64,000 bases of DNA, from NCBI GenBank assembly GCA_003223325.1, contig QHYS01000010.1, positions 1 through 64,000 of the forward strand, given 5' to 3'. Positions 13,957 to 61,500 of this stretch are shown piece by piece. This stretch comes from Acidobacteriota bacterium. Its GTDB lineage: Bacteria; Acidobacteriota; Terriglobia; Acidiferrales; UBA7541. A program made the position numbers and the translations under genes. How positions within the stretch are numbered: position 1 is the first letter of the stretch; each line of letters starts with the position of its first letter. The notes under the pieces are model-generated. The model searched no databases, was not told the origin of the DNA, and worked only from the letters and a program-made list of their open reading frames with translations.

Positions 13957-14640
13957 TCAGCGCGGAATGTAGGAATCGAGCGACGGTAGAAAATCATGAA
14001 TGAATGCTACAGCACGGTTTTCAGCGGCCGCTTCGGTCTCCCCTCGGTTGATAGAGGTGACCACCCTCACGAGAGCTCCATCGCTGCGATTCATACGAAT
14101 AGAATCCTCCACTAAGTAGAACTTCGCTGCATATTCACTGGCAACAACACGGCCGTGTGACTGATACCAATAGAGTACTAGTTGCCGGTCCAACCCCTTG
14201 CCGATGACGTAGCGATTGACCAACATCGAGTCGCCGCCCGGCCGCGGCAGAGAAATTCGACTAAACTCGACAGGCGTCCACCCCGAGCCTGGTAGGCAGT
14301 GCTGCGGGGAGTGAATGGTACTGCCGGTTCGTTGCGTCGGAAAGTAAGCAACGAAGAAATCGACTACAGGCTCGGAACCAGACTGATACAATCGCTCAAC
14401 AAACTCTCCATCCCCCAGAACGCTAATAACCTCAGCCGGGATCGGTACATCCCGCCCGAAAGAATCACCTACCAGCAGGGGAAACGAAGATAGACTTTGG
14501 CGCGGCGGCACATTCTCAGGCCGGCTCCGGGCATTAAGAAATACGTAGCTGCCGACGAGAAGGGCGGCCACACAAAAGAAACGAGCCCAGCAATCTTGAG
14601 CTACCCTCAAGCTGCCTTCCTCCCTTTTCCTCTGTGCCAT
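13957..14640 (-). CDS. epsI: EpsI-family exosortase accessory protein
   Basis: The 227-residue protein has one N-terminal membrane helix (FFCVAALLVGSYVFLNA) and the diagnostic EpsI segment RTGSTIHSPQHCLPGSGW at about residues 104-121. EpsI is either fused to or encoded directly after the exosortase, and it accompanies methanolan-type exopolysaccharide loci. Here it overlaps the exosortase gene by 34 bases, indicating translational coupling. It probably acts at the periplasmic face of the membrane; its biochemistry is unknown. Confidence 0.9.
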   Translation of the reverse strand: MAQRKREEGSLRVAQDCWARFFCVAALLVGSYVFLNARSRPENVPPRQSLSSFPLLVGDSFGRDVPIPAEVISVLGDGEFVERLYQSGSEPVVDFFVAYFPTQRTGSTIHSPQHCLPGSGWTPVEFSRISLPRPGGDSMLVNRYVIGKGLDRQLVLYWYQSHGRVVASEYAAKFYLVEDSIRMNRSDGALVRVVTSINRGETEAAAENRAVAFIHDFLPSLDSYIPR

Positions 14641-15596
14641 CGGAAGTTGATCAGCCGGTGAATGGCATACAGCATGAGCAACGAGAGCAGAAAGATCACC
14701 CAGCCTGAAAACTCATGGAAAAATCCTTCTGCCTTGTCGGGATCCCAGTACTGCACCAGTAGACCGGTCCCCATAATGCGTAGTCCATTTGCCGCCACCG
14801 CAATGGGTATCGCGGCAACCACTAAAACCACTCGTTTCCAAATCCGTGCCTCAAAGAAGTAAGTAAAAACAACTGCCAGACTTGTGAGCGAAACGAGCGA
14901 GCGAATTCCGCTGCAGGCTTCGACGACCTCTAATCTCATCGCCGGCAGATGAATCACATTCCCTTCTCTGAGCACAGGTACGCCTGCCAATGATAAGAGT
15001 GAGGTGGCCAGATTGGAGGCCAGGAACTGCAGAGGAAAGGTAAGCTGGTTATATAGGATGGCAGGAATGGGGATCATCAAGAACAGGACTGCCCATGGGA
15101 ATGAAATCGCACCGAAAAACCGCCAACCAAAAAACAAGATCGTCAGGCCGGCGAGGAGCAGAATCAACGAAGAACGCGAAAGGAACAATTCAGCCCCGAG
15201 GACTCCAACGATCAACGTGATCAATGCGGCGCCGACAACTGGCAAGCCGAACCACGAAGGTCTTGAATCTACGCGTGCAAGGTCATGATGCATTCGCCAA
15301 ATGACGAACCCGGAAAAAATAGGCACGAAGAAGCCATGAGAGAAATCGGGGTCATTCCACCACTGGAGAGCCAGATTAGCCAAAATACCGTGGTAGAGAA
15401 TGCCGATGAGTGCGATGACCGCAGCAAGCTGCGACCACTGGAGTGAGCCCACCGGAGTCTCCCCCAGCGCGACCACGGCAGCGGAATCCGAACTGGCTTG
15501 AGTCAAATTTACCTCGTCCGTTAACGGGCTATCTGGTGGGAGCAAGCTAGCTGCCACGAGGCAGGGCCAAAGGCCGGTCGCAGGCAGCCAACCCAA
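14607..15596 (-). CDS. xrt: Exosortase (PEP-CTERM transpeptidase-like protease)
   Basis: The 329-residue polytopic membrane protein has the exosortase catalytic triad: Cys228 in EACSGIRSL, Arg273 in ANGLRIMGTG and His294 in FHEFSGWV. About eight membrane helices are visible, with the typical WWNDPDFSHGFFVP segment near residue 80. It removes the PEP-CTERM tail from exported proteins and links them to surface polysaccharide or lipid. The first roughly 50 residues are not conserved-looking, so a later start is possible. It heads an operon with epsI and prsT and is divergent from the sugar transferase operon. Confidence 0.9.
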   Translation of the reverse strand: MGWLPATGLWPCLVAASLLPPDSPLTDEVNLTQASSDSAAVVALGETPVGSLQWSQLAAVIALIGILYHGILANLALQWWNDPDFSHGFFVPIFSGFVIWRMHHDLARVDSRPSWFGLPVVGAALITLIVGVLGAELFLSRSSLILLLAGLTILFFGWRFFGAISFPWAVLFLMIPIPAILYNQLTFPLQFLASNLATSLLSLAGVPVLREGNVIHLPAMRLEVVEACSGIRSLVSLTSLAVVFTYFFEARIWKRVVLVVAAIPIAVAANGLRIMGTGLLVQYWDPDKAEGFFHEFSGWVIFLLSLLMLYAIHRLINFRWHRGKGRKAA

Positions 15597-46861: not shown

Positions 46862-47422
46862 CGCCTAAATACAATCGAAGGTTTCGGCGAAACGGAAACA
46901 CAACAGCGCCGCGACGATAAGGAAGCTGTGGCTGCGCACGCACACGCTCCACAAGACCTTGATCAGATCCCGCCCTGCCAAATTTTTTGCCTCCCTTGCT
47001 ACTGGGTAATGCCCGAGAAAAGGGGATTTCTCGGAGAGTAGGAAACGGCTTCACGCCGCATTCCGAAGCGACTGGGCTGCAATCACGCCTACGGGTCGTT
47101 TGCCTACAACTACAGAGGTTGACAGCTCGAACTAGCTATCTCACTGCCGTTAAGGTAGTTAGGTTTGGAGCACGTTGGAAAACAGGCGCTGCTGAGGCAA
47201 CTTTTGACTCTCGGAAGTCTAGGCCCCAAGACGGGCATGAGATAGAGGGGCTTCGCAAAACTGCAGCAAACAGGGATTAGAACAAAGAAGAAGTTTTTTG
47301 CCACTTTTATGCCCGGCAAGGACTCCCCTTTCAATCGATACGAGCACTTGTCGTGCTTGATCCCTAGATAACACCAACAACTCAAAGGGATTAACCTCGC
47401 GAACAGGCGTCAAGGCCCAGGG
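46862..47422. other. 560-base gap without a recognised gene
   Basis: No frame on either strand shows a family motif or credible start. The right end abuts a sigma-54-type promoter. Earlier parts may hold remnants of the HAD gene's neighbours. Confidence 0.4.
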
Positions 47423-47438
47423 TGGCATCCGCATTGCT
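47423..47438 (+). promoter_or_regulatory. Sigma-54 (-24/-12) promoter
   Basis: TGGCATCCGCATTGCT matches the sigma-54 consensus TGGCAY-N5-TTGCW exactly, with the invariant GG and GC dinucleotides 12 bases apart. Transcription would begin near 47449, at the very start of the regulator gene. This suggests that translation begins at a later Met or is leaderless. It is the only clear sigma-54 site I found in the EPS regions. Confidence 0.6.
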
Positions 47439-47447
47439 CTCCTCAAC

Positions 47448-48446
47448 ATGAACTCATCGGCGTTTCAAGAACGCAGAAGCTCACCTTACATGCAAATGGC
47501 ATCCTTAACCAAAGTGACACCACGATCGGACGATAGTCGATTCTTATTGGGGCAGGCCAACAGCCCGGCGATGCACGCGCTTGAGCGGATGATCGCCAAG
47601 CTCGCGCCGACGAACATCCCTCTGCTGTTAATCGGGGAAAGCGGCACGGGAAAGGAGATCCTCGCACAGCAAATTCACCAACTCTCTCCAAAGGGTAGTC
47701 AGCCCCTCGTCAAGCTGATCTGTGCTTTCCTAAGCGCTGAATCTTTATCCGCTCACTTTAACGGGTGCAGCAATGGCGACGGACAGGCGCGCACCTTATT
47801 CCTCAAGGAGATTAACGAACTGGACGATTCAAGTCAGCGAAACCTTCTGCACTCCCTACCCCCGTCAGACGTGAGTATTACCGAAGGCTTTAACGGTCAG
47901 AGGTTGATCTCCTCGACCACCCGAAACTTGGAAGAGGAAGTGAGGGCCGGTCGATTCCGCGCTGACCTTTATTATCAAATTAGTGCCGTAAGCCTGACGA
48001 TTCCTCCTTTGCGCCAGCGAAAAGAAGACATTCCGGCATTTGTGGAATTGTTCCTGATGAAATATTCGACTCTTTTGGGACGCCCGCGCCCGCACCTCGA
48101 CTCACAAGATTTCATCCTTTTACAGGGATCTCCCTGGCCGGGCAATATTCGGGAACTGGAAAATATGATCAGGAAGATTGTGGTTCTGAACGACCCCAAG
48201 GCTGTTCTTTCGCAACTCGCCGTGCAGATGAACGAGTCCCCCTCTACCGTGACCTGGGGCAAGACCTTTCCATTGAAAACGGCCGCACGAGCGGCTTCTC
48301 ATCGAACTGAACGACAGTTGATTCTGGAGACTCTGGCCAGGACCCGTTGGAATCGGAAGCGTGCGGCTCAGGAGCTGCAAATCAGTTACAAGTCATTACT
48401 CTACAAGCTGAAGCAAATCCACAGCGAAGAACAGGAAAAGGGATAG
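47448..48446 (+). CDS. Sigma-54-activator-like AAA+ regulator lacking the GAFTGA loop
   Basis: The 332-residue protein has a AAA+ domain and a Fis-type helix-turn-helix but no receiver. Walker A is GESGTGKE (63-70), the Arg finger region GRFRADLYYQI and sensor II SPWPGNIRELENMIRK are normal, and the C-terminal NRKRAAQELQISYKSLLYKL binds DNA. Between Cys92 and LFLKEI about 20 residues are missing, removing the GAFTGA loop that contacts sigma-54. The Walker B Asp is Lys120. It therefore probably cannot activate sigma-54 itself and may act as a repressor or partner. It lies 18 bases before the chain-length gene. ATGs at 47490 or 47496 are alternative starts. Confidence 0.8.
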   Translation: MNSSAFQERRSSPYMQMASLTKVTPRSDDSRFLLGQANSPAMHALERMIAKLAPTNIPLLLIGESGTGKEILAQQIHQLSPKGSQPLVKLICAFLSAESLSAHFNGCSNGDGQARTLFLKEINELDDSSQRNLLHSLPPSDVSITEGFNGQRLISSTTRNLEEEVRAGRFRADLYYQISAVSLTIPPLRQRKEDIPAFVELFLMKYSTLLGRPRPHLDSQDFILLQGSPWPGNIRELENMIRKIVVLNDPKAVLSQLAVQMNESPSTVTWGKTFPLKTAARAASHRTERQLILETLARTRWNRKRAAQELQISYKSLLYKLKQIHSEEQEKG

Positions 48447-48464: not shown

Positions 48465-49961
48465 ATGAGTGGAATGAGACAACTAGATTTCGACGACTAT
48501 GTCGAGATTTTTCGGCGGCGATGGTGGTTGGTGACGGTTCTCGCCTTGGTAGGTGCCGGAGCAGGCTATGGGTTAGCCCATTTCCTGCCGAAGCGCTACA
48601 CATCCCAGACTTTGGTACTCGTGGAACAACCTACCGTTCCTGGGGATTACGTGAAACCTGTAATTACCCAGGATGTGAACCAGCGCTTGGCAACCATGCA
48701 GCAGCAGATCTTGAGCCGCACGCGTTTAGAACCGGTCATTCAGCAGTTTGGACTATTTCCCGAGGACATTAAGCAACGATCTATGGAAGAGTTAGTACAA
48801 CGTCTGCGCGAGACAATCAGTGTTACACCCATCCGCGCCATGACCGGGACAGAAGGGCGGATGCTTCCCGGATTTTATATCGGTGTGGTCTTCGATGATC
48901 CTCACCTGGCGCAGCAGATTTGCTCCACGATTACCTCCATGTTTATGGAAGAAAATCTGAAGCTGCGGCAGCAACTCTCTGAACAAACGACGCAATTCCT
49001 AAGCAAGCAGCTCGAAGATGCTAAAGCAAGACTCGATGAGCAAGATTCCAAGTTGGCGGATTTTAAGCGCCAGCATATCGGCTCTCTTCCTGACGAGAGC
49101 AATACGAACCTCAACATTCTCACCGGGCTGACCACACAGCTCGATGCAGTAACCCAAGCGCTTGCTCGCGGCCAGCAGGACAAGAGCTTTGCCGAATCCG
49201 TGCTGGCACAGCAACTCGAGGCCTGGCAACCCTCTCAGGTTGGACCGAACCCAGAGACAAGAGAACAACAACTCTCCGCGCGGGAACTGCAGCTCTCGGA
49301 ATTGCAGTCCAAGTACACAGATGACCATCCGGACGTTATCAAGGCCAAAAGTGATGTCGAAGCTCTCAAGAAGAAACTTGCTGAGAGCGAAGCCAGAGAC
49401 AATGCGGCGTACCCTGACAAGTCCGCCAAGACGGCAGCGGAACCGCTGCAGATTCAAAATTTGCGCGCTCAAATCTTCCAAATCGAGCAGGCCATTACGG
49501 AAAGAACGAAACAGCAGGAAGAGATCCAGCGGCAGATCAAATTGTATCGGGAGCGAGTCGAATCCAGTCCGGCGATCGAGCAAGAATATAAAGAACTGAC
49601 CCGAGACTATCAAACAGCCCTGGCCTTTTACAACGATCTGCTTAGCAAGCGCGACCAGTCGGCCATGGCCAACGATCTCGAGCGTCATCAACAGGGGGAG
49701 CAGTTCCAGGTTCTAGATCCTGCTAGTCTTCCTGACAAGCCGTCGTTTCCCAATAAGCAGCTTTTCGCGGTAGGTGGATCCGGTGCCGGCTTGAGCTTAG
49801 GAGTCGGTCTCGTCCTCCTTGTTGAACTACTGGACAAGTCACTGCGCTCAAGGCAAAACGTTGAAACCGCTCTCCGCTTGCCAGTGCTCGCCATGATACC
49901 GGTTATCGGTGCACCTTCAGGCAAGCGAGTAAATAAGTCAGTGTTCGCACTGAAGATATAG
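48465..49961 (+). CDS. Polysaccharide chain-length determinant, Wzz/GumC-like (exosortase-linked)
   Basis: The 498-residue inner-membrane protein has the Wzz opening (DFDDYVEIFRRRWWLVTVLA) with a first helix, then KRYTSQTLVLVEQPTVPG. A long periplasmic coiled coil follows (about 150-420; TTQFLSKQLEDAKARLDEQD), then a Pro-rich exit (LDPASLPDKPSFPNKQ) and a second helix. It has the length of the exosortase-associated GumC-like group. It sets polysaccharide chain length and pairs with the tyrosine kinase encoded 69 bases downstream. Confidence 0.9.
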   Translation: MSGMRQLDFDDYVEIFRRRWWLVTVLALVGAGAGYGLAHFLPKRYTSQTLVLVEQPTVPGDYVKPVITQDVNQRLATMQQQILSRTRLEPVIQQFGLFPEDIKQRSMEELVQRLRETISVTPIRAMTGTEGRMLPGFYIGVVFDDPHLAQQICSTITSMFMEENLKLRQQLSEQTTQFLSKQLEDAKARLDEQDSKLADFKRQHIGSLPDESNTNLNILTGLTTQLDAVTQALARGQQDKSFAESVLAQQLEAWQPSQVGPNPETREQQLSARELQLSELQSKYTDDHPDVIKAKSDVEALKKKLAESEARDNAAYPDKSAKTAAEPLQIQNLRAQIFQIEQAITERTKQQEEIQRQIKLYRERVESSPAIEQEYKELTRDYQTALAFYNDLLSKRDQSAMANDLERHQQGEQFQVLDPASLPDKPSFPNKQLFAVGGSGAGLSLGVGLVLLVELLDKSLRSRQNVETALRLPVLAMIPVIGAPSGKRVNKSVFALKI

Positions 49962-50030: not shown

Positions 50031-50987
50031 ATGACTCGTATCCACGAAGCGTTGACGAAGGCTGGTCAAGAGTATCCCGCCGCTCAAGCGATCGATAGTC
50101 TGTTTCAGCTGGATTCGACCCGGCCCATTGAGTCGGAGTCGAAAGATGCACCTCCATCCGGGATAGGTTCGCCGAGACGCGTGAACATCCTCGCTCCTGC
50201 TGCAACTGATCCGCTCGAACTGGATGATCTGCGAAAGCGCTGCTCATACCCCGAATGGTCCTTCGACCCGGCTGTGGATGTCTTTTCCGATCAGGGACGG
50301 AGCGCCTTGGGCGCAGAGCAATTCCGTACTTTGCGTTCGCGACTCTGTCAGCTTCGAGGCAACCGACCTGTCCGAACAATTTTGATAACCAGTGCGGTGG
50401 CCGGCGAGGGAAAGACATTTGTGGCCTTCAATCTGGCGCAGGCGATCGTCCGACAGCCCGACCAACGCGTTCTGATTATAGATGCGGACTTACGCTGCTC
50501 GCGCCTGCATGGCATCTTTGGAGCACCGAACGCCCTGGGCCTGAGTGATTATTTGGGAGGAAGAGCAGATGAGCTCGCCATTATTCAGTCAGGTCATGAA
50601 GGCAATTTGTACTTGATTCCAGGCGGAACCAGAATTGCGAATCCGAGCGAGTTGCTTGCGAATGGACGCTTCAAAAGACTTATTGAGCGTGTGGCACCGC
50701 TGTTCGATTGGATCATTGTCGATTCAACCCCCTGCCTTCCGGTCACGGACGCAAATATTGCTGCCAATTCCTGCGATGGTCTGCTTCTCGTGGTGAAAGC
50801 CTATTCGACACCCGCCGAGATTGCTCAGAGAGCGAGGCAAGAACTGCAAGACCGGAACGTCCTAGGGGTAGTGTTTAATTCTGTACAGGAAAGTATTGTG
50901 TCGTATGGCTCCTATTATAACTATCCGCAAAATGGTCACGATGAGGTGAAGAAAACTCAAGCGCATAGGAACAAGTTCAGGCAATAG
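50031..50987 (+). CDS. BY-kinase, CpsD/Wzc-C type tyrosine autokinase
   Basis: The 318-residue cytoplasmic protein shows Walker A TSAVAGEGKTF (120-130), Walker A' LIIDADLRCSRLH (148-160) and Walker B WIIVDSTP (227-234). Its tail contains a tyrosine cluster (YGSYYNY, residues 292-298) where such kinases autophosphorylate. The N-terminal 90 residues are a variable linker. It belongs to the exosortase-associated protein tyrosine kinase group and regulates the Wzz-like partner by cycles of phosphorylation. Confidence 0.9.
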   Translation: MTRIHEALTKAGQEYPAAQAIDSLFQLDSTRPIESESKDAPPSGIGSPRRVNILAPAATDPLELDDLRKRCSYPEWSFDPAVDVFSDQGRSALGAEQFRTLRSRLCQLRGNRPVRTILITSAVAGEGKTFVAFNLAQAIVRQPDQRVLIIDADLRCSRLHGIFGAPNALGLSDYLGGRADELAIIQSGHEGNLYLIPGGTRIANPSELLANGRFKRLIERVAPLFDWIIVDSTPCLPVTDANIAANSCDGLLLVVKAYSTPAEIAQRARQELQDRNVLGVVFNSVQESIVSYGSYYNYPQNGHDEVKKTQAHRNKFRQ

Positions 50988-51035
50988 ACTCTAAATCATT
51001 ATCTCGTCTTCTTGTTCCCGGAGGTAAGTCCGAAA

Positions 51036-51623
51036 GTGTTCAAACGCATAGGCTTGTCGACTCTACTAAGGGTTTTCGTTTTTTTGCTGCTGGTTCTGTC
51101 CGCCGGCGCCCAGAAAGCTGCGGGGGCCACAACCCAAGACCCCAACTATGTGATTGGTTCAGAAGACGTGCTCGACATTAGTGTGTGGAAGGAGCCCGAT
51201 CTTTCCCGCACAGTCCCCGTTCGTCCCGATGGAAACATTTCCCTCCCCCTGCTCAACGACTTGCAGGCCACCGGATTGACTCCCTCACAATTAGCGGCGA
51301 AAGTCACAAAGGGCTTAGCTAAGTTCGTCACCAACCCTCAAGTCACCATCATTGTGACTCAGATTAACAGCCAACGTTTCTACGTTCTAGGGGAGGCCGC
51401 CCGCCCGGGCGCCTATACATTGACTCCCAACATGACGGTTCTACAGGCCCTCTCAAATGCAGGCGGCTTTACGCCCTATGCGAATTCCAAAAAGATCTGT
51501 CTGCTGCGCGAAGAAAATGGCAAACAGCAAAAGCTGCTCTTTAACTACAAAGATGTTATCGCCGGAAAGCGGACCGAGCAGAACATCGTCCTAAAGACCG
51601 GCGATACGATCGTCGTACCATAG
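51036..51623 (+). CDS. Polysaccharide export outer-membrane protein, Wza-like
   Basis: A GGAGGT site fixes a GTG start at 51036. The 195-residue protein has a signal peptide (STLLRVFVFLLLVLSAGAQ), the Poly_export domain (YVIGSEDVLDISVWKEPDLS, RTVPVRPDGNISLPLLNDLQ) and a SLBB repeat (FYVLGEAARPGAYTLTPNMT). It forms the periplasm-to-outside conduit or its lower ring. It is shorter than E. coli Wza, lacking the C-terminal outer-membrane helix, as in other EpsE-like proteins of exosortase loci. Confidence 0.9.
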   Translation: MFKRIGLSTLLRVFVFLLLVLSAGAQKAAGATTQDPNYVIGSEDVLDISVWKEPDLSRTVPVRPDGNISLPLLNDLQATGLTPSQLAAKVTKGLAKFVTNPQVTIIVTQINSQRFYVLGEAARPGAYTLTPNMTVLQALSNAGGFTPYANSKKICLLREENGKQQKLLFNYKDVIAGKRTEQNIVLKTGDTIVVP

Positions 51624-51656
51624 CTCAAAGTGTTGGCATTCGGTGGAAAAATCGAA

Positions 51657-53129
51657 ATGAGACACGCAAGGATCCTAGTTGTCCTGATCCAAACCTTAGC
51701 TGCGGTCGCAGCGCTCTGCTTTTCGGTCGCATGGGCCCAGCAAGCTCCGAAGGCTCCTCTCTCCACCGGCCCACAGGCTCCTGCTCAACCCTTGGCTCCT
51801 CTGCCAAGTGGGAGCAACGGTAGCGCCGGGTCGGGCGCAGCCGGTGGGTCAGTAGCGCAAGACGTCGCGCAGCCAGAACCCTCAACGCAAGTACAGCCCG
51901 ACACGCACGCTCTTGCCAGTGCGGAGATTCTCGGTTTGGGTTCTCTGCGCCGTTTGACCCGTATCTTTGATCCCGCACTGCAATTTTCGGAACTTGCGGA
52001 AACCGGGATCGTGGCCGGACAAACCGTTTCAGTGAGCAGCGTGGGTGGGACGCTTGACGTGGAACGGCGGTGGCGCCGCTATCATTTGGCAGCCACATAC
52101 CGCGGCGCTGAAACGATATACGAGCCCTCCTACTATTATGGCATGCGCTACTTGCCTTATCACGACGGCGGCATCTCGCAGGAAATATCCTTGGGGCGGT
52201 GGACACTGCGGTTGCGCGACGATGTGCTGTATTCATGGGGATCCGGTTTTGGCAGTCTATTCGCAGGTGGGCCTGCACTGGCGAGCCAGAATGGTTCCCT
52301 GGACAGCATCCAGCGATCTTTGGCTTCCAGTGGAACGATCCAGACGGCCCTTGCACGGCAGCTCTCCAATACCGCACTGGGCGAAATCGATTATGCGCAC
52401 AGCCGACGGACAACGCTGACCCTGGTCGGTTCTTACGGATTACTTCACTTTTTGGATCCCGGCTATATCAACAGTCAGAACATTACTGGGCGGGTCGGAT
52501 ACAACTACGCCCTCAGCGCCAAGAACAATGTCGCGCTGACTTACGATCATAACCTCATAACTTTCGTTGGAGCCAACGGCCGCCTTCAGACCGACCTGGC
52601 TCAGATGGCGTTCGGACGCAAAGTTACCGGACGATTGGCTCTCCAGGTGGCGGCCGGACCACGACTTCTCCATTTTGCTTACTTCGGCCCGGCGCACAGA
52701 ACGCAGCTGTCTTGGAGCGCGTCGAGCTCGCTGACGTATCAATGGCGCCGCACCGGCTATTCTCTTTCCTACTTCCGCGGAGTAACCACCGGTTCGGGCG
52801 TGTTCTTTGGTAGCAGCAGTGACACTATTACAGCCATGGCAAGCCGCGAACTCACAAGGTTCTGGTCTGCCTCGGTGAATGGTGGATATGCCAGAAACGA
52901 TGCTTTGGTACCCCGCGCCGTTTTCGCCAGCCGATTCGACGACTGGTTCGTGGGCGCCAGCTTGAACCACCCGTTAGGACGTCAAGTCCGTTTGGGCCTG
53001 AGCTACGCATTTCAACAGCAGACCAGCGGAGGTGGGGGCTGTCCGGTTCTCACTTGCGGGCTCGCGCGACCCTTTAGCCAGTACGGCATTACCTTGCAGT
53101 GGCACCCATTGCTAGTCCGGGCCAGATGA
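51657..53129 (+). CDS. Outer-membrane beta-barrel protein of the EPS locus
   Basis: The ATG at 51657 gives a signal peptide (LVVLIQTLAAVAALCFSVAW). A Pro/Ala/Gly/Ser-rich linker to about residue 85 follows, then alternating amphipathic strands to the end (HLAATYRGAETIYEPSYYYG, LSYFRGVTTGSGVFFG, VRLGLSYAFQQQ). The last strand ends in a hydrophobic position, as barrel proteins do. Exosortase/EPS clusters carry such proteins as presumed secretion pores. It begins 34 bases after the wza-like gene. Confidence 0.7.
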   Translation: MRHARILVVLIQTLAAVAALCFSVAWAQQAPKAPLSTGPQAPAQPLAPLPSGSNGSAGSGAAGGSVAQDVAQPEPSTQVQPDTHALASAEILGLGSLRRLTRIFDPALQFSELAETGIVAGQTVSVSSVGGTLDVERRWRRYHLAATYRGAETIYEPSYYYGMRYLPYHDGGISQEISLGRWTLRLRDDVLYSWGSGFGSLFAGGPALASQNGSLDSIQRSLASSGTIQTALARQLSNTALGEIDYAHSRRTTLTLVGSYGLLHFLDPGYINSQNITGRVGYNYALSAKNNVALTYDHNLITFVGANGRLQTDLAQMAFGRKVTGRLALQVAAGPRLLHFAYFGPAHRTQLSWSASSSLTYQWRRTGYSLSYFRGVTTGSGVFFGSSSDTITAMASRELTRFWSASVNGGYARNDALVPRAVFASRFDDWFVGASLNHPLGRQVRLGLSYAFQQQTSGGGGCPVLTCGLARPFSQYGITLQWHPLLVRAR

Positions 53130-53270: not shown

Positions 53271-54209
53271 ATGTATAAAAAATTCTTTGGACTTCGCGAG
53301 AACCCGTTCAATGTCAATCCCGACCCGCGATACCTCTATCTCACTCGGCACATCCAGGAGGCCCTCGCCTGTTTGATCTACGGAATCCAGGCACGCAAGG
53401 GCTTCGTGTTACTTACCGGCGAGGTAGGCACCGGTAAGACCACCGTCCTCAACAAGCTTCTGGGTTGGTGTCGTCAGGAACGCATCGCCACGGCCTTTAT
53501 GTTCAACCCACGGCTAAGCGAAGCGGAGTTTTTCGATTTCATGCTCGCCGATTTCGGCATTCCCTGCGATTCGACTCTGAAGAGCCGGACCTTACTGAAA
53601 CTGAATCAGTGGCTGCTCGAACAACATCAGCGCGGAAGTCGTGCGATTCTAATCGTCGATGAAGCGCAGAACCTGTCTTTCGAGATGCTCGAAGAGATTC
53701 GACTCTTGACGAATCTCGAGACTTCTACCGAAAAACTCCTGCAAATTGTCCTGGCCGGTCAGCCTGAACTCGAGGATAAAGTGAATGACCCACGACTGCG
53801 GCAGCTTCGGCAGCGCATTACTCTTTGGGCCAAAACGCGCCCGTTGACGCTGCTCGAGACTTCTGGTTATATCAAGGAGCGGCTACGCATCGGCGGCAGC
53901 ACGGGACAGGAGATCTTCAGTCTAGCAGCGGTTGAAGCTGTGCATCGCCATGCTCGAGGCATTCCCCGGATCATCAATTTGATTTGTGAACATGCCCTGA
54001 TCAGCTCTTTCGTAGAACACTCGAAAACCGTTTCGGCAAAGATCGTCGAAGAAGTCGCCGGCGATTTTGACCTGCAGGAAGTGGCCTTCGAGCTAGCCCC
54101 CAAAGCCGCGAATACCGGCCTTCCCATACTCGCGGACCGTGAATTACCCCAGACTGGGCGCCCACCTTCGGTTCCATTGTCCAGAGTCGCAGGGGAACAG
54201 AAGAATTAG
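53271..54209 (+). CDS. ExeA-like AAA ATPase (exosortase-associated)
   Basis: The 312-residue ATPase starts MYKKFFGLRENPFNVNPDPR, the hallmark of the ExeA/GspA-like group found in exosortase loci. Walker A is GEVGTGKTT (50-58), Walker B AILIVDEAQNLS (125-136), and a sensor region follows (RQRITLWAKTRPLTLLETSG). General knowledge links it to assembly of secretion complexes in the cell envelope. It lies 141 bases after the barrel gene, in the same direction. It lacks the C-terminal peptidoglycan-binding domain seen in ExeA itself. Confidence 0.85.
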   Translation: MYKKFFGLRENPFNVNPDPRYLYLTRHIQEALACLIYGIQARKGFVLLTGEVGTGKTTVLNKLLGWCRQERIATAFMFNPRLSEAEFFDFMLADFGIPCDSTLKSRTLLKLNQWLLEQHQRGSRAILIVDEAQNLSFEMLEEIRLLTNLETSTEKLLQIVLAGQPELEDKVNDPRLRQLRQRITLWAKTRPLTLLETSGYIKERLRIGGSTGQEIFSLAAVEAVHRHARGIPRIINLICEHALISSFVEHSKTVSAKIVEEVAGDFDLQEVAFELAPKAANTGLPILADRELPQTGRPPSVPLSRVAGEQKN

Positions 54210-59097: not shown

Positions 59098-61500
59098 TCA
59101 TTCCACTCGAACGATATAATCCCATCCTTCCCACCGGCCGCTTTCTGGGTAGAAAAATGTGAACCGGATTGGGGCGCGTTGTTCCGGGACGATTGGTATG
59201 TCCAGGAAGTGAACCTTCAATAGCGTTCCAGAGGAATCCATATCATGGATACTTTGCCACTCGTCTTTGGTCCAATGGAGCCTAAAAGCGGCAGGCGCTT
59301 GGATACGCAGCGTATAGCCTTTTCTTACCGTGCGGCATTGCCGGTTGTGCTTCCAAATTTCCAGGCAACGACAGTTCTTGCGTTCGCCTAAGTAACGCTG
59401 GGCGACCGCGGGGATCAGGTCAAAGACTTTGCCGTCCGAGGCGGAACGCAGCAGCTTGATGTATTCGGCGTGGGCCCACATCAGGGGCATGGCGGCTCCG
59501 GTGGGTTTGCCAAGATACATGTGGGCTTCAGGGAGATCGTAGGTGTCCCAAACCTGTTCGGGCAGCAGTCCCGTCGAGGAGGCAAATGCCTCCATGGCAC
59601 GCAGAAAGGGAGCAGCCCCAGCCCCACGGCCGGCGGCCAGTTCGTAGTGGCCTCGTTCGCCCGTCAACAGCGGCCAAGCGCGGCCGGTGCCCCAGCGATC
59701 GTAGCCCGATCCATCGTTGCGCTGACCGTAGCCGTCGTGGTTATAGCGATGCCAGCAAGGGCCGAAGGGAGTTTCAACCTTCAAGACAGCATCTATAACT
59801 TTCAGCGAGTCTACGATGACGGGATCGTCCGGCCTACGGATCCCGTAGCGCACCAGCTCAAGGAATCCGGCATCCACGATCTCTTTGGCTGGAAACTCAT
59901 ATTGCGTTGCTGGAGGACGGTTCGACAGCACCAGGGTCCCTGTATTGGGATCCTCGTCAGGACAGCAGTCGGCAATACTCACCGGATTGATGCGGATGTA
60001 GTGCCGCGCAATGCCCGGCACCAGAGTGCCCTGTGTAGTGACCGTCCAGGCCTCCACGTGGCACTCAAGGAAATCCACGTAGTCCTCTATGAATTGCGCT
60101 GTGGCTTGGTCTCCTCGCTCGCGAGCAAAGCAGGCGGCGCACAGCAAGGCGGCAATTTTTACGGCGATCGTCGAAGGAGAGTACCCGGAAGCCTCTTCCC
60201 ATCTCTCCTGGGCCGTAGCGGGCCCATGCAGAATGAGATTTCCAGCCGCTCCCATCACCATGGAGTATGGATCGAATCCCGCAAGCGCGCAGTATTGGTG
60301 CATCCGCCATGCCAGAACGATCGGGTAGGCGATTTCATCGAGCTGAATGCCCCGCCAGTAAGGCTCACCGTCTAACCAGAAGTTTTGCGGGAACCCGCCG
60401 TCCGCCTGCTGGCAGGCGGCGAGGTAAATCAAAGCTCGCAGGGGCGTTTCCGTGTGACCGCAAGCCAACAGTGCGGTGGCGCTCTGCACCATATCGCGCG
60501 TCCACACCAGGTGATAGCCGCCTGTATCCTCGTCGCCTTTCATTTCTCCCCAGGGGATCGAAAGCGAAGCAATGAAGGCGCCGGGGAAATTCTTGTCTTC
60601 ATGCGCGAGCAGCAGGCTCACGCTGCTGTCGTACAGCCTGCCTTCGTCGCCCGAAGCGCGTTGCAAGGACAACGTCTTGCGGCTGGGTCGCGACCATTGA
60701 TCGACGTAATGCTCTCGTTGCTGATCGAAGGGAAGTCCCAATCCTTGCAAAAGTGTGGTGACGGCATTTTGCAAACTATCTCCCAGGGCCAGACCCAGAG
60801 TGAACTCGTCTTTGCCAGCTAGGTCCAGTTCTCCCGTAAGCGCGATGTTGCCGTCGGGGGCCTGGTCGAACTCCCAATCCATTTGCAGGTTCTCATTCAA
60901 GTCCGTCCAGCCATCACTTTGCCCGACGTAACCGCAGGACAGGCGGCGAAAAGGCAGCGTGGCCGCCAGTGCCAGCCAGGTCCCGTGTTTCTCGGCCGCC
61001 AGAATGCCGCGCCCGGCTGCTTCCACGATGTAACCACTGTTTCCCCACCCTCCGACCTCCAGGTGCGGAGCGCACAAGGCATAGAGGCGAAGCTGAGACA
61101 GAAACTGCGGATCACCCTTCAGCTTGGTATGTTGGAGAACACACGAGAGGTGAGGGTCCGTGATGATCTGCTTTTCAATCTGGTAGCGGCCGTTCGGATC
61201 GGAGTTCACGACGCGATAGGCCAGCGCATTCGTCCAGGGGCGCTCCATCTGCGTCTCGAGGTGGCGCTTCTCTTCATGGAAGAAACTCTTCCCATCGGTG
61301 ATCAGATACTGAAGGTCACGAATCTGGGGCCGGTCAATTGTGGGGTAATAAGTTTCGGTGACAATGCCATTCCAAAGAGTGAACCAGAGGCGACTGGAGG
61401 TAGCGTAGGCGGTCCCTACGCCCTCCTTAGCTCCCTGCGTCCATCGAGGCTCAATACCCGGCCTGCCAAAAGCAATTCGATTGCCACGAAGCTTTGCCAA
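59098..61500 (-). CDS. Glucan 1,4-alpha-glucosidase (glucoamylase), GH15
   Basis: A TTG start with GAGGAG six bases upstream gives 800 residues. The N-terminal beta-sandwich (GTAYATSSRLWFTLWNGIVT, ETYYPTIDRPQIRDLQYLIT) and the alpha/alpha-barrel (GYHLVWTRDMVQSATALLAC, DGGFPQNFWLDGEPYWRGIQ) match bacterial GH15 enzymes. The general-acid Glu region is ERWEEASGYSPST and the base region TGRAWPLLTGERGHYELAAG. It releases glucose from alpha-1,4-glucans. No signal peptide is visible, so it is probably cytoplasmic and involved in glycogen or maltodextrin use. Confidence 0.85.
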   Translation of the reverse strand: MAKLRGNRIAFGRPGIEPRWTQGAKEGVGTAYATSSRLWFTLWNGIVTETYYPTIDRPQIRDLQYLITDGKSFFHEEKRHLETQMERPWTNALAYRVVNSDPNGRYQIEKQIITDPHLSCVLQHTKLKGDPQFLSQLRLYALCAPHLEVGGWGNSGYIVEAAGRGILAAEKHGTWLALAATLPFRRLSCGYVGQSDGWTDLNENLQMDWEFDQAPDGNIALTGELDLAGKDEFTLGLALGDSLQNAVTTLLQGLGLPFDQQREHYVDQWSRPSRKTLSLQRASGDEGRLYDSSVSLLLAHEDKNFPGAFIASLSIPWGEMKGDEDTGGYHLVWTRDMVQSATALLACGHTETPLRALIYLAACQQADGGFPQNFWLDGEPYWRGIQLDEIAYPIVLAWRMHQYCALAGFDPYSMVMGAAGNLILHGPATAQERWEEASGYSPSTIAVKIAALLCAACFARERGDQATAQFIEDYVDFLECHVEAWTVTTQGTLVPGIARHYIRINPVSIADCCPDEDPNTGTLVLSNRPPATQYEFPAKEIVDAGFLELVRYGIRRPDDPVIVDSLKVIDAVLKVETPFGPCWHRYNHDGYGQRNDGSGYDRWGTGRAWPLLTGERGHYELAAGRGAGAAPFLRAMEAFASSTGLLPEQVWDTYDLPEAHMYLGKPTGAAMPLMWAHAEYIKLLRSASDGKVFDLIPAVAQRYLGERKNCRCLEIWKHNRQCRTVRKGYTLRIQAPAAFRLHWTKDEWQSIHDMDSSGTLLKVHFLDIPIVPEQRAPIRFTFFYPESGRWEGWDYIVRVE

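Follow-up and report, generated by a model that had tools for sequence, protein, structure and literature searches.

Sigma-54 promoters depend on their activator, and brakes on these promoters are therefore usually sought in kinases or anti-activators. Acidobacteria are a large, poorly studied soil phylum, and the literature searched held no description of a GAFTGA-less regulator in acidobacterial XrtA loci. The loop-less enhancer-binding proteins (EBPs) NtrC of Rhodobacter and Caulobacter and VpsR of V. cholerae are reported to act at sigma-70 promoters (PMC10274813), and TyrR, DhaR, HupR and YplP lack a proper GAFTGA motif as well (PMC3162934). Hetero-oligomers of EBPs are already known (PMC9542535). 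In proteobacteria, PEP-CTERM genes are preceded by an upstream motif and then a sigma-54 site, an arrangement that has been assigned to PrsR (PMC1569441).

The window analysed here, i.e. the whole stretch of 64,000 nucleotides from an Acidobacteriota bacterium, contains the gene for a GAFTGA-less EBP paralog. Its product is built like the other GAFTGA-less EBPs (R. capsulatus and Caulobacter NtrC, VpsR, TyrR, DhaR, HupR and YplP), combining AAA+ and helix-turn-helix (HTH) domains with a deleted or altered L1/GAFTGA segment, and VpsR also governs polysaccharide genes. In contrast to these proteins, it has no N-terminal receiver or sensor domain, its gene opens a sigma-54 operon that has a conserved enhancer of its own, and the loop was lost separately in Acidobacteria, where several lineages have also lost Walker B residues. 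XrtA polysaccharide loci, sigma-54 promoters with an upstream motif and a recognition helix that barely differs from the one in the PrsR-like regulators identified in this work connect the protein to PrsR (TIGR02915), yet it reaches only 161.1 bits against a cut-off of 502.6 and possesses neither receiver nor GAFTGA. As in HrpR/HrpS and FleQ/FleT, there are paralogous pairs of short proteins without regulatory domains, here sometimes in tandem, but one putative partner is entirely devoid of the sigma-54 loop. PspF (TIGR02974) shares the architecture of AAA+ plus Fis HTH without a regulatory domain, whereas the window protein scores 137.7 bits (cut-off 443.55), misses GAFTGA and has polysaccharide genes as neighbours. 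The new element is a conserved clade whose genes have lost the loop and at the same time take an activator's place in the operon, under a conserved sigma-54 enhancer and promoter.

The loop-less gene and its operon

The gene and the polysaccharide genes used to define the locus are as follows.

47448..48446, + strand: GAFTGA-less EBP paralog (332 aa from the start first called; 318 aa from the more probable ATG at 47490)
48465..49961, + strand: XrtA-system polysaccharide chain length determinant, Wzz-like (TIGR03007, 280.2 bits, cut-off 278.85)
50031..50987, + strand: polysaccharide tyrosine autokinase (TIGR01007, 154.7 bits, cut-off 108.05)
51012..51623, + strand: polysaccharide export (Wza-like) protein (PF02563; TIGR03027, 163 bits, under the cut-off of 180)
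51630..53129, + strand: outer-membrane-protein-like gene (from operon synteny in relatives; no Pfam family)
53271..54209, + strand: XrtA-system-associated ATPase (TIGR03015, 278.7 bits, under the cut-off of 324.5)
14607-15596, - strand: exosortase (TIGR03109, 208.7 bits, cut-off 208; TIGR02602)

The reading frame 47448-48446 is open throughout. It matches the PF00158 sigma-54 interaction AAA+ domain (93.8 bits, cut-off 20.2), the AAA lid PF25601 (56.8 bits) and the Fis-type HTH_8, and a Pfam search detected no receiver, sensory or other regulatory domain in it. These domains place the product among the AAA+ proteins of NtrC/PspF type that carry a Fis helix-turn-helix. Since the predicted transcription start (~47449) coincides with the ATG at 47448, this codon is disfavoured and the ATG at 47490 is the more likely start, which also agrees better with the promoter-to-start distances of the orthologs; neither ATG is preceded by a good ribosome-binding site.

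The initial annotation had described a protein that retains Walker A, the arginine finger and the Fis-type helix but has lost a segment of roughly 20 residues with the GAFTGA loop. Indeed, Walker A reads GESGTGK, the recognition helix is ISYKSLLYK, and GAFTGA is missing together with about 17-21 flanking residues; in an alignment to solved relatives the gap coincides with the L1 segment that bears GAFTGA. It is this missing loop that suggests an inability to contact sigma-54. As to the fingers, the description holds for the first arginine, whereas the second (equivalent to PspF R168) is replaced by Q. The switch Asn and the sensor I Asn are both absent, and Walker B reads LFLKEI, with the lysine at position 120 in the 332-aa numbering, as had been noted. 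An AlphaFold2 model computed from a two-row alignment had a pLDDT of 40 and a pTM of 0.23, values too low for the model to be used.

Together with PrsT (TIGR02917, 358.7 bits, cut-off 312.2) and the XrtA glycosyltransferase (TIGR03013, 444.1 bits, cut-off 393.35), the gene content marks the surroundings as an XrtA/PEP-CTERM-type polysaccharide locus. Synteny confirmed that the loop-less gene lies next to wzz-like genes in relatives: in about 20 genomes it is the first gene of an operon with export, outer-membrane, chain-length, ATPase and kinase genes, and exosortase and PrsT are often divergent from this operon. The genus of the window has a different downstream gene order, with the loop-less gene still first. 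The XrtA-system-associated ATPase is 54-74% identical across the orthologous operons. Exosortase and EpsI are two overlapping genes at 13957-15596 (-), and the XrtD and XrtW models (486-494 positions) cover both of them together.

The window's own genome contains rpoN and about 19 full PF00158 domains. On its contig C363 a PrsR-like regulator is found with a histidine kinase; its recognition helix is ISYKALLYK.

Origin and conservation of the loop-less family

We aligned the window protein with 25 further proteins (41-88% identity) drawn from the genus, family, order and class levels. The GAFTGA segment is absent from each of these 26 acidobacterial orthologs, and four further loop-less members were read from another family of the same class; GAFTGA or near variants are present in the other 28 EBPs aligned. 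In a tree built without the loop columns, the 26 loop-less proteins form a single clade (support 100/100), which is sister to short GAFTGA-bearing activators that also head similar polysaccharide operons. Loop loss is a single change on this tree, which places one loss of the L1 (GAFTGA) loop in an ancestor belonging to this acidobacterial class. A search across 297 genomes of the phylum found loop-less members in the same class only, among the best matches of each genome, so that a very divergent member elsewhere could be missed; 24 other readable best-match loci carry GAFTGA or a near variant. Three family candidates of this search (L096-L098) were missed by the motif filter, two of which (all but L097) were read by eye. 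A contig scan with the window protein yielded one true ortholog and one 27% match in Pasteurella.

The loop-less gene is under purifying selection, with dN/dS values of 0.08-0.23 for nearest pairs in the family (0.12 for the window and G003), and the reading frames of all members are intact. The initial annotation had left room for a single damaged copy among orthologs with a normal GAFTGA segment. This reading is rejected, given the deletion in 26 orthologs and purifying selection. That a decaying pseudogene is being lost, for which one might cite ATPase residues that disappeared repeatedly in different lineages, deserves next to no credence, being contradicted by these values, by the intact frames and by promoter, enhancer and operon position that are conserved across families.

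All 26 proteins have the Walker A lysine and the sensor II arginine, and 24 have the first arginine finger. The Walker B Asp is found in 22 and the Glu in 20 of the 26 proteins, whereas the switch Asn and the sensor I Asn are missing almost throughout. Most members conserve the ATP site, which points to a continuing role of nucleotide-dependent assembly in them. The Walker B lysine (K-E) is restricted to the window's genus, whose proteins also carry Q at the second arginine finger and are predicted to have lost ATP hydrolysis. The lysine therefore had to be rejected as a family-defining trait and, as a late and genus-specific change, cannot account for the basic function of the family. Members of another family have lost the Walker B Asp separately (S in G131 and G267), and G179 has R-H in place of D-E. 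A Walker B lysine (TILLKEV) is also seen in another EBP of the window's genome (L090 7117-8073 (-), G000:C334), which retains GAFTGA.

Most family members have the recognition helix ISYKALLYK, identical to that of PrsR-like regulators. Mean identity in the HTH is 0.76 in the loop-less family versus 0.64 and 0.86 in two GAFTGA groups, and in the L1 region 0.18 versus 0.79 and 0.92, these means being indicative only as the compared groups differ in divergence. In the loop-less family the region from Walker B to the finger is relaxed as well. The contrast between HTH and L1 suggests that selection has maintained the DNA-binding end while relaxing its hold on the sigma-54 end.

Genes of this kind drop out of surveys restricted to proteins with GAFTGA (as in PMC3162934 and PMC12316311).

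Sigma-54 promoters and a predicted palindromic enhancer

The regulatory elements considered in the window are listed here.

47284..47313, + strand: predicted palindromic upstream enhancer (UAS), family consensus aGtGGaAAAatTTTtCCaCTttgTGG, PWM score 27.9
47423..47438, + strand: sigma-54 -24/-12 promoter TGGCATCCGCATTGCT, predicted transcription start ~47449
15541..15556, - strand: another consensus sigma-54 site, TGGCAGCTAGCTTGCT, within the 5' end of the exosortase gene as called
61471-61486, - strand: consensus sigma-54 site TGGCAATCGAATTGCT, at the 5' end of an 800-aa gene (59098-61500, - strand)

The perfect TGGCAT-N5-TTGCT site reported at the start of the loop-less gene is an exact match and the sole copy in the window, where 0.01 would be expected by chance at its composition; the looser TGGCA-N6-TTGCW has 3 matches versus 0.31 expected. 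A -24/-12 site with invariant GG and GC lies upstream of the loop-less gene in all 26 cases, although GG, GC and the consensus are part of the site-picking score and the relatives are not independent, so that a pooled p-value is overstated. For promoter conservation, more weight attaches to the shuffle values of the single regions and to a position that stays constant from family to family. The sites have A/T in the last position and are usually located 50-80 nt before the gene start. The position of TGGCAGCTAGCTTGCT inside the called 5' end suggests a start codon further downstream for the exosortase gene, and control of that gene by sigma-54. The 800-aa gene behind TGGCAATCGAATTGCT looks glycoside hydrolase-like by eye.

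A palindromic motif, not noticed before, was discovered de novo in 22 orthologous regions upstream of the promoter. The predicted enhancer is found at a near-constant distance, mostly 108-122 bp upstream of the promoter, with a PWM score of at least 20 at 24 of the 26 promoters (exceptions L055 and L068), and the window site is the best match of the model in the whole genome, with E-values that are weak, the motif being short. The same arrangement of enhancer and promoter recurs in G322 and G131, which belong to another family and were outside the training set. In the fetched loci we counted 34 pairs of enhancer and sigma-54 promoter, whereas five Markov shuffles gave none. About 10 of the 34 pairs precede genes for PrsT, exosortase, sugar or glycosyltransferase functions or canonical short GAFTGA activators. 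With this conserved pair of elements, an XrtA polysaccharide regulon of Acidobacteria can be searched for in concrete terms. At the remaining EPS promoters of the window, enhancers are weak at best (7.6 on the exosortase side). Two further copies of the palindrome, in L125 (G000:C363 ~22011) and L136 (G012:C44 ~343989), lie between the gene for a 405-aa histidine kinase in a PrsK-like position and a divergent gene.

In G015 and G032, a GAFTGA activator occupies the same operon slot with the same kind of enhancer and promoter, and no loop-less protein was among the matches found. Where relatives keep a sigma-54 activator in that slot, positive autoregulation is predicted.

Proposed role and alternatives

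We see an even chance that the loop-less paralog is retained as a DNA-binding regulator that damps its own and other enhancer-bearing operons; on its own operon it would probably act as a brake or modulator. In this scenario, a GAFTGA-bearing activator, either PrsR-like or a sister short activator, would turn on the XrtA polysaccharide regulon, and the loop-less protein would be produced upon activation. It could then bind to the same GGAAA-N-TTTCC enhancers via its near-identical recognition helix. Since it would be unable to remodel sigma-54 polymerase, the real activator would be displaced or diluted, and its own operon and other enhancer-bearing operons would be damped. The shared enhancers and the near-identical helix make the negative feedback proposed in the initial annotation likelier, and we infer the feedback itself, as well as binding, competition and the sign of regulation. 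Against damping, pure DNA competition would not need an invariant Walker A Lys and sensor II Arg and mostly kept fingers, and the enhancers at the window's other EPS promoters are weak at best. Moreover, known GAFTGA-less relatives act mostly at sigma-70 promoters (PMC10274813, PMC3162934).

That there is a dedicated family of mute EBPs, in which a loop-deleted paralog in the activator slot turns a predicted positive into a built-in negative feedback, we propose tentatively, at somewhat less than even chances. If true, it would represent a natural, evolved dominant negative that is encoded under the type of promoter it cannot open, and would offer a ready test of how an EBP changes sign following the loss of one loop.

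It is rather doubtful that the protein is a sigma-70-type regulator of the VpsR or Rhodobacter/Caulobacter NtrC kind, which would bind DNA, possibly together with ATP, and turn ordinary polysaccharide gene promoters up or down. Precedents with a deleted GAFTGA, including the polysaccharide regulator VpsR, do exist (PMC10274813; PMC3162934), and invariant Walker A and sensor II residues would fit the ATP-binding-dependent action reported for RcNtrC. However, the DNA elements found conserved at the protein's own operon are of the sigma-54 type, a non-systematic look identified no sigma-70 target, and the receiver domain of VpsR and NtrC is missing.

In four genomes (G007, G019, G029 and G034) a GAFTGA-bearing short activator lies directly upstream of the loop-less gene. 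This tandem could indicate a structural partner that forms mixed hexamers with the activator in the style of HrpR/HrpS or FleQ/FleT, tuning or enabling it rather than blocking it. Oligomer-interface and nucleotide residues (Walker A, arginine fingers and sensor II) are kept in most members, and like HrpR/HrpS neither partner has regulatory domains (PMC9542535). We nevertheless consider such a partnership improbable: the tandem is found in only 4 of the 26 cases, the Walker B Asp and the second arginine finger are lost in the window's genus, Walker B acids are lost in other lineages too, and the switch and sensor I asparagines are gone nearly throughout. Weak sigma-54 activation that persists through another surface would fit a gene that remains within the sigma-54 regulon, but it is highly improbable because the L1 region is gone, the stretch from Walker B to the finger is relaxed, and changes in GAFTGA mostly abolish activity (PMC7175178, PMC3162934).

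A short activator from a polysaccharide locus (L079, G025:C131, 6269-7333) has GALAGA for GAFTGA, possibly another partial loss of the motif.
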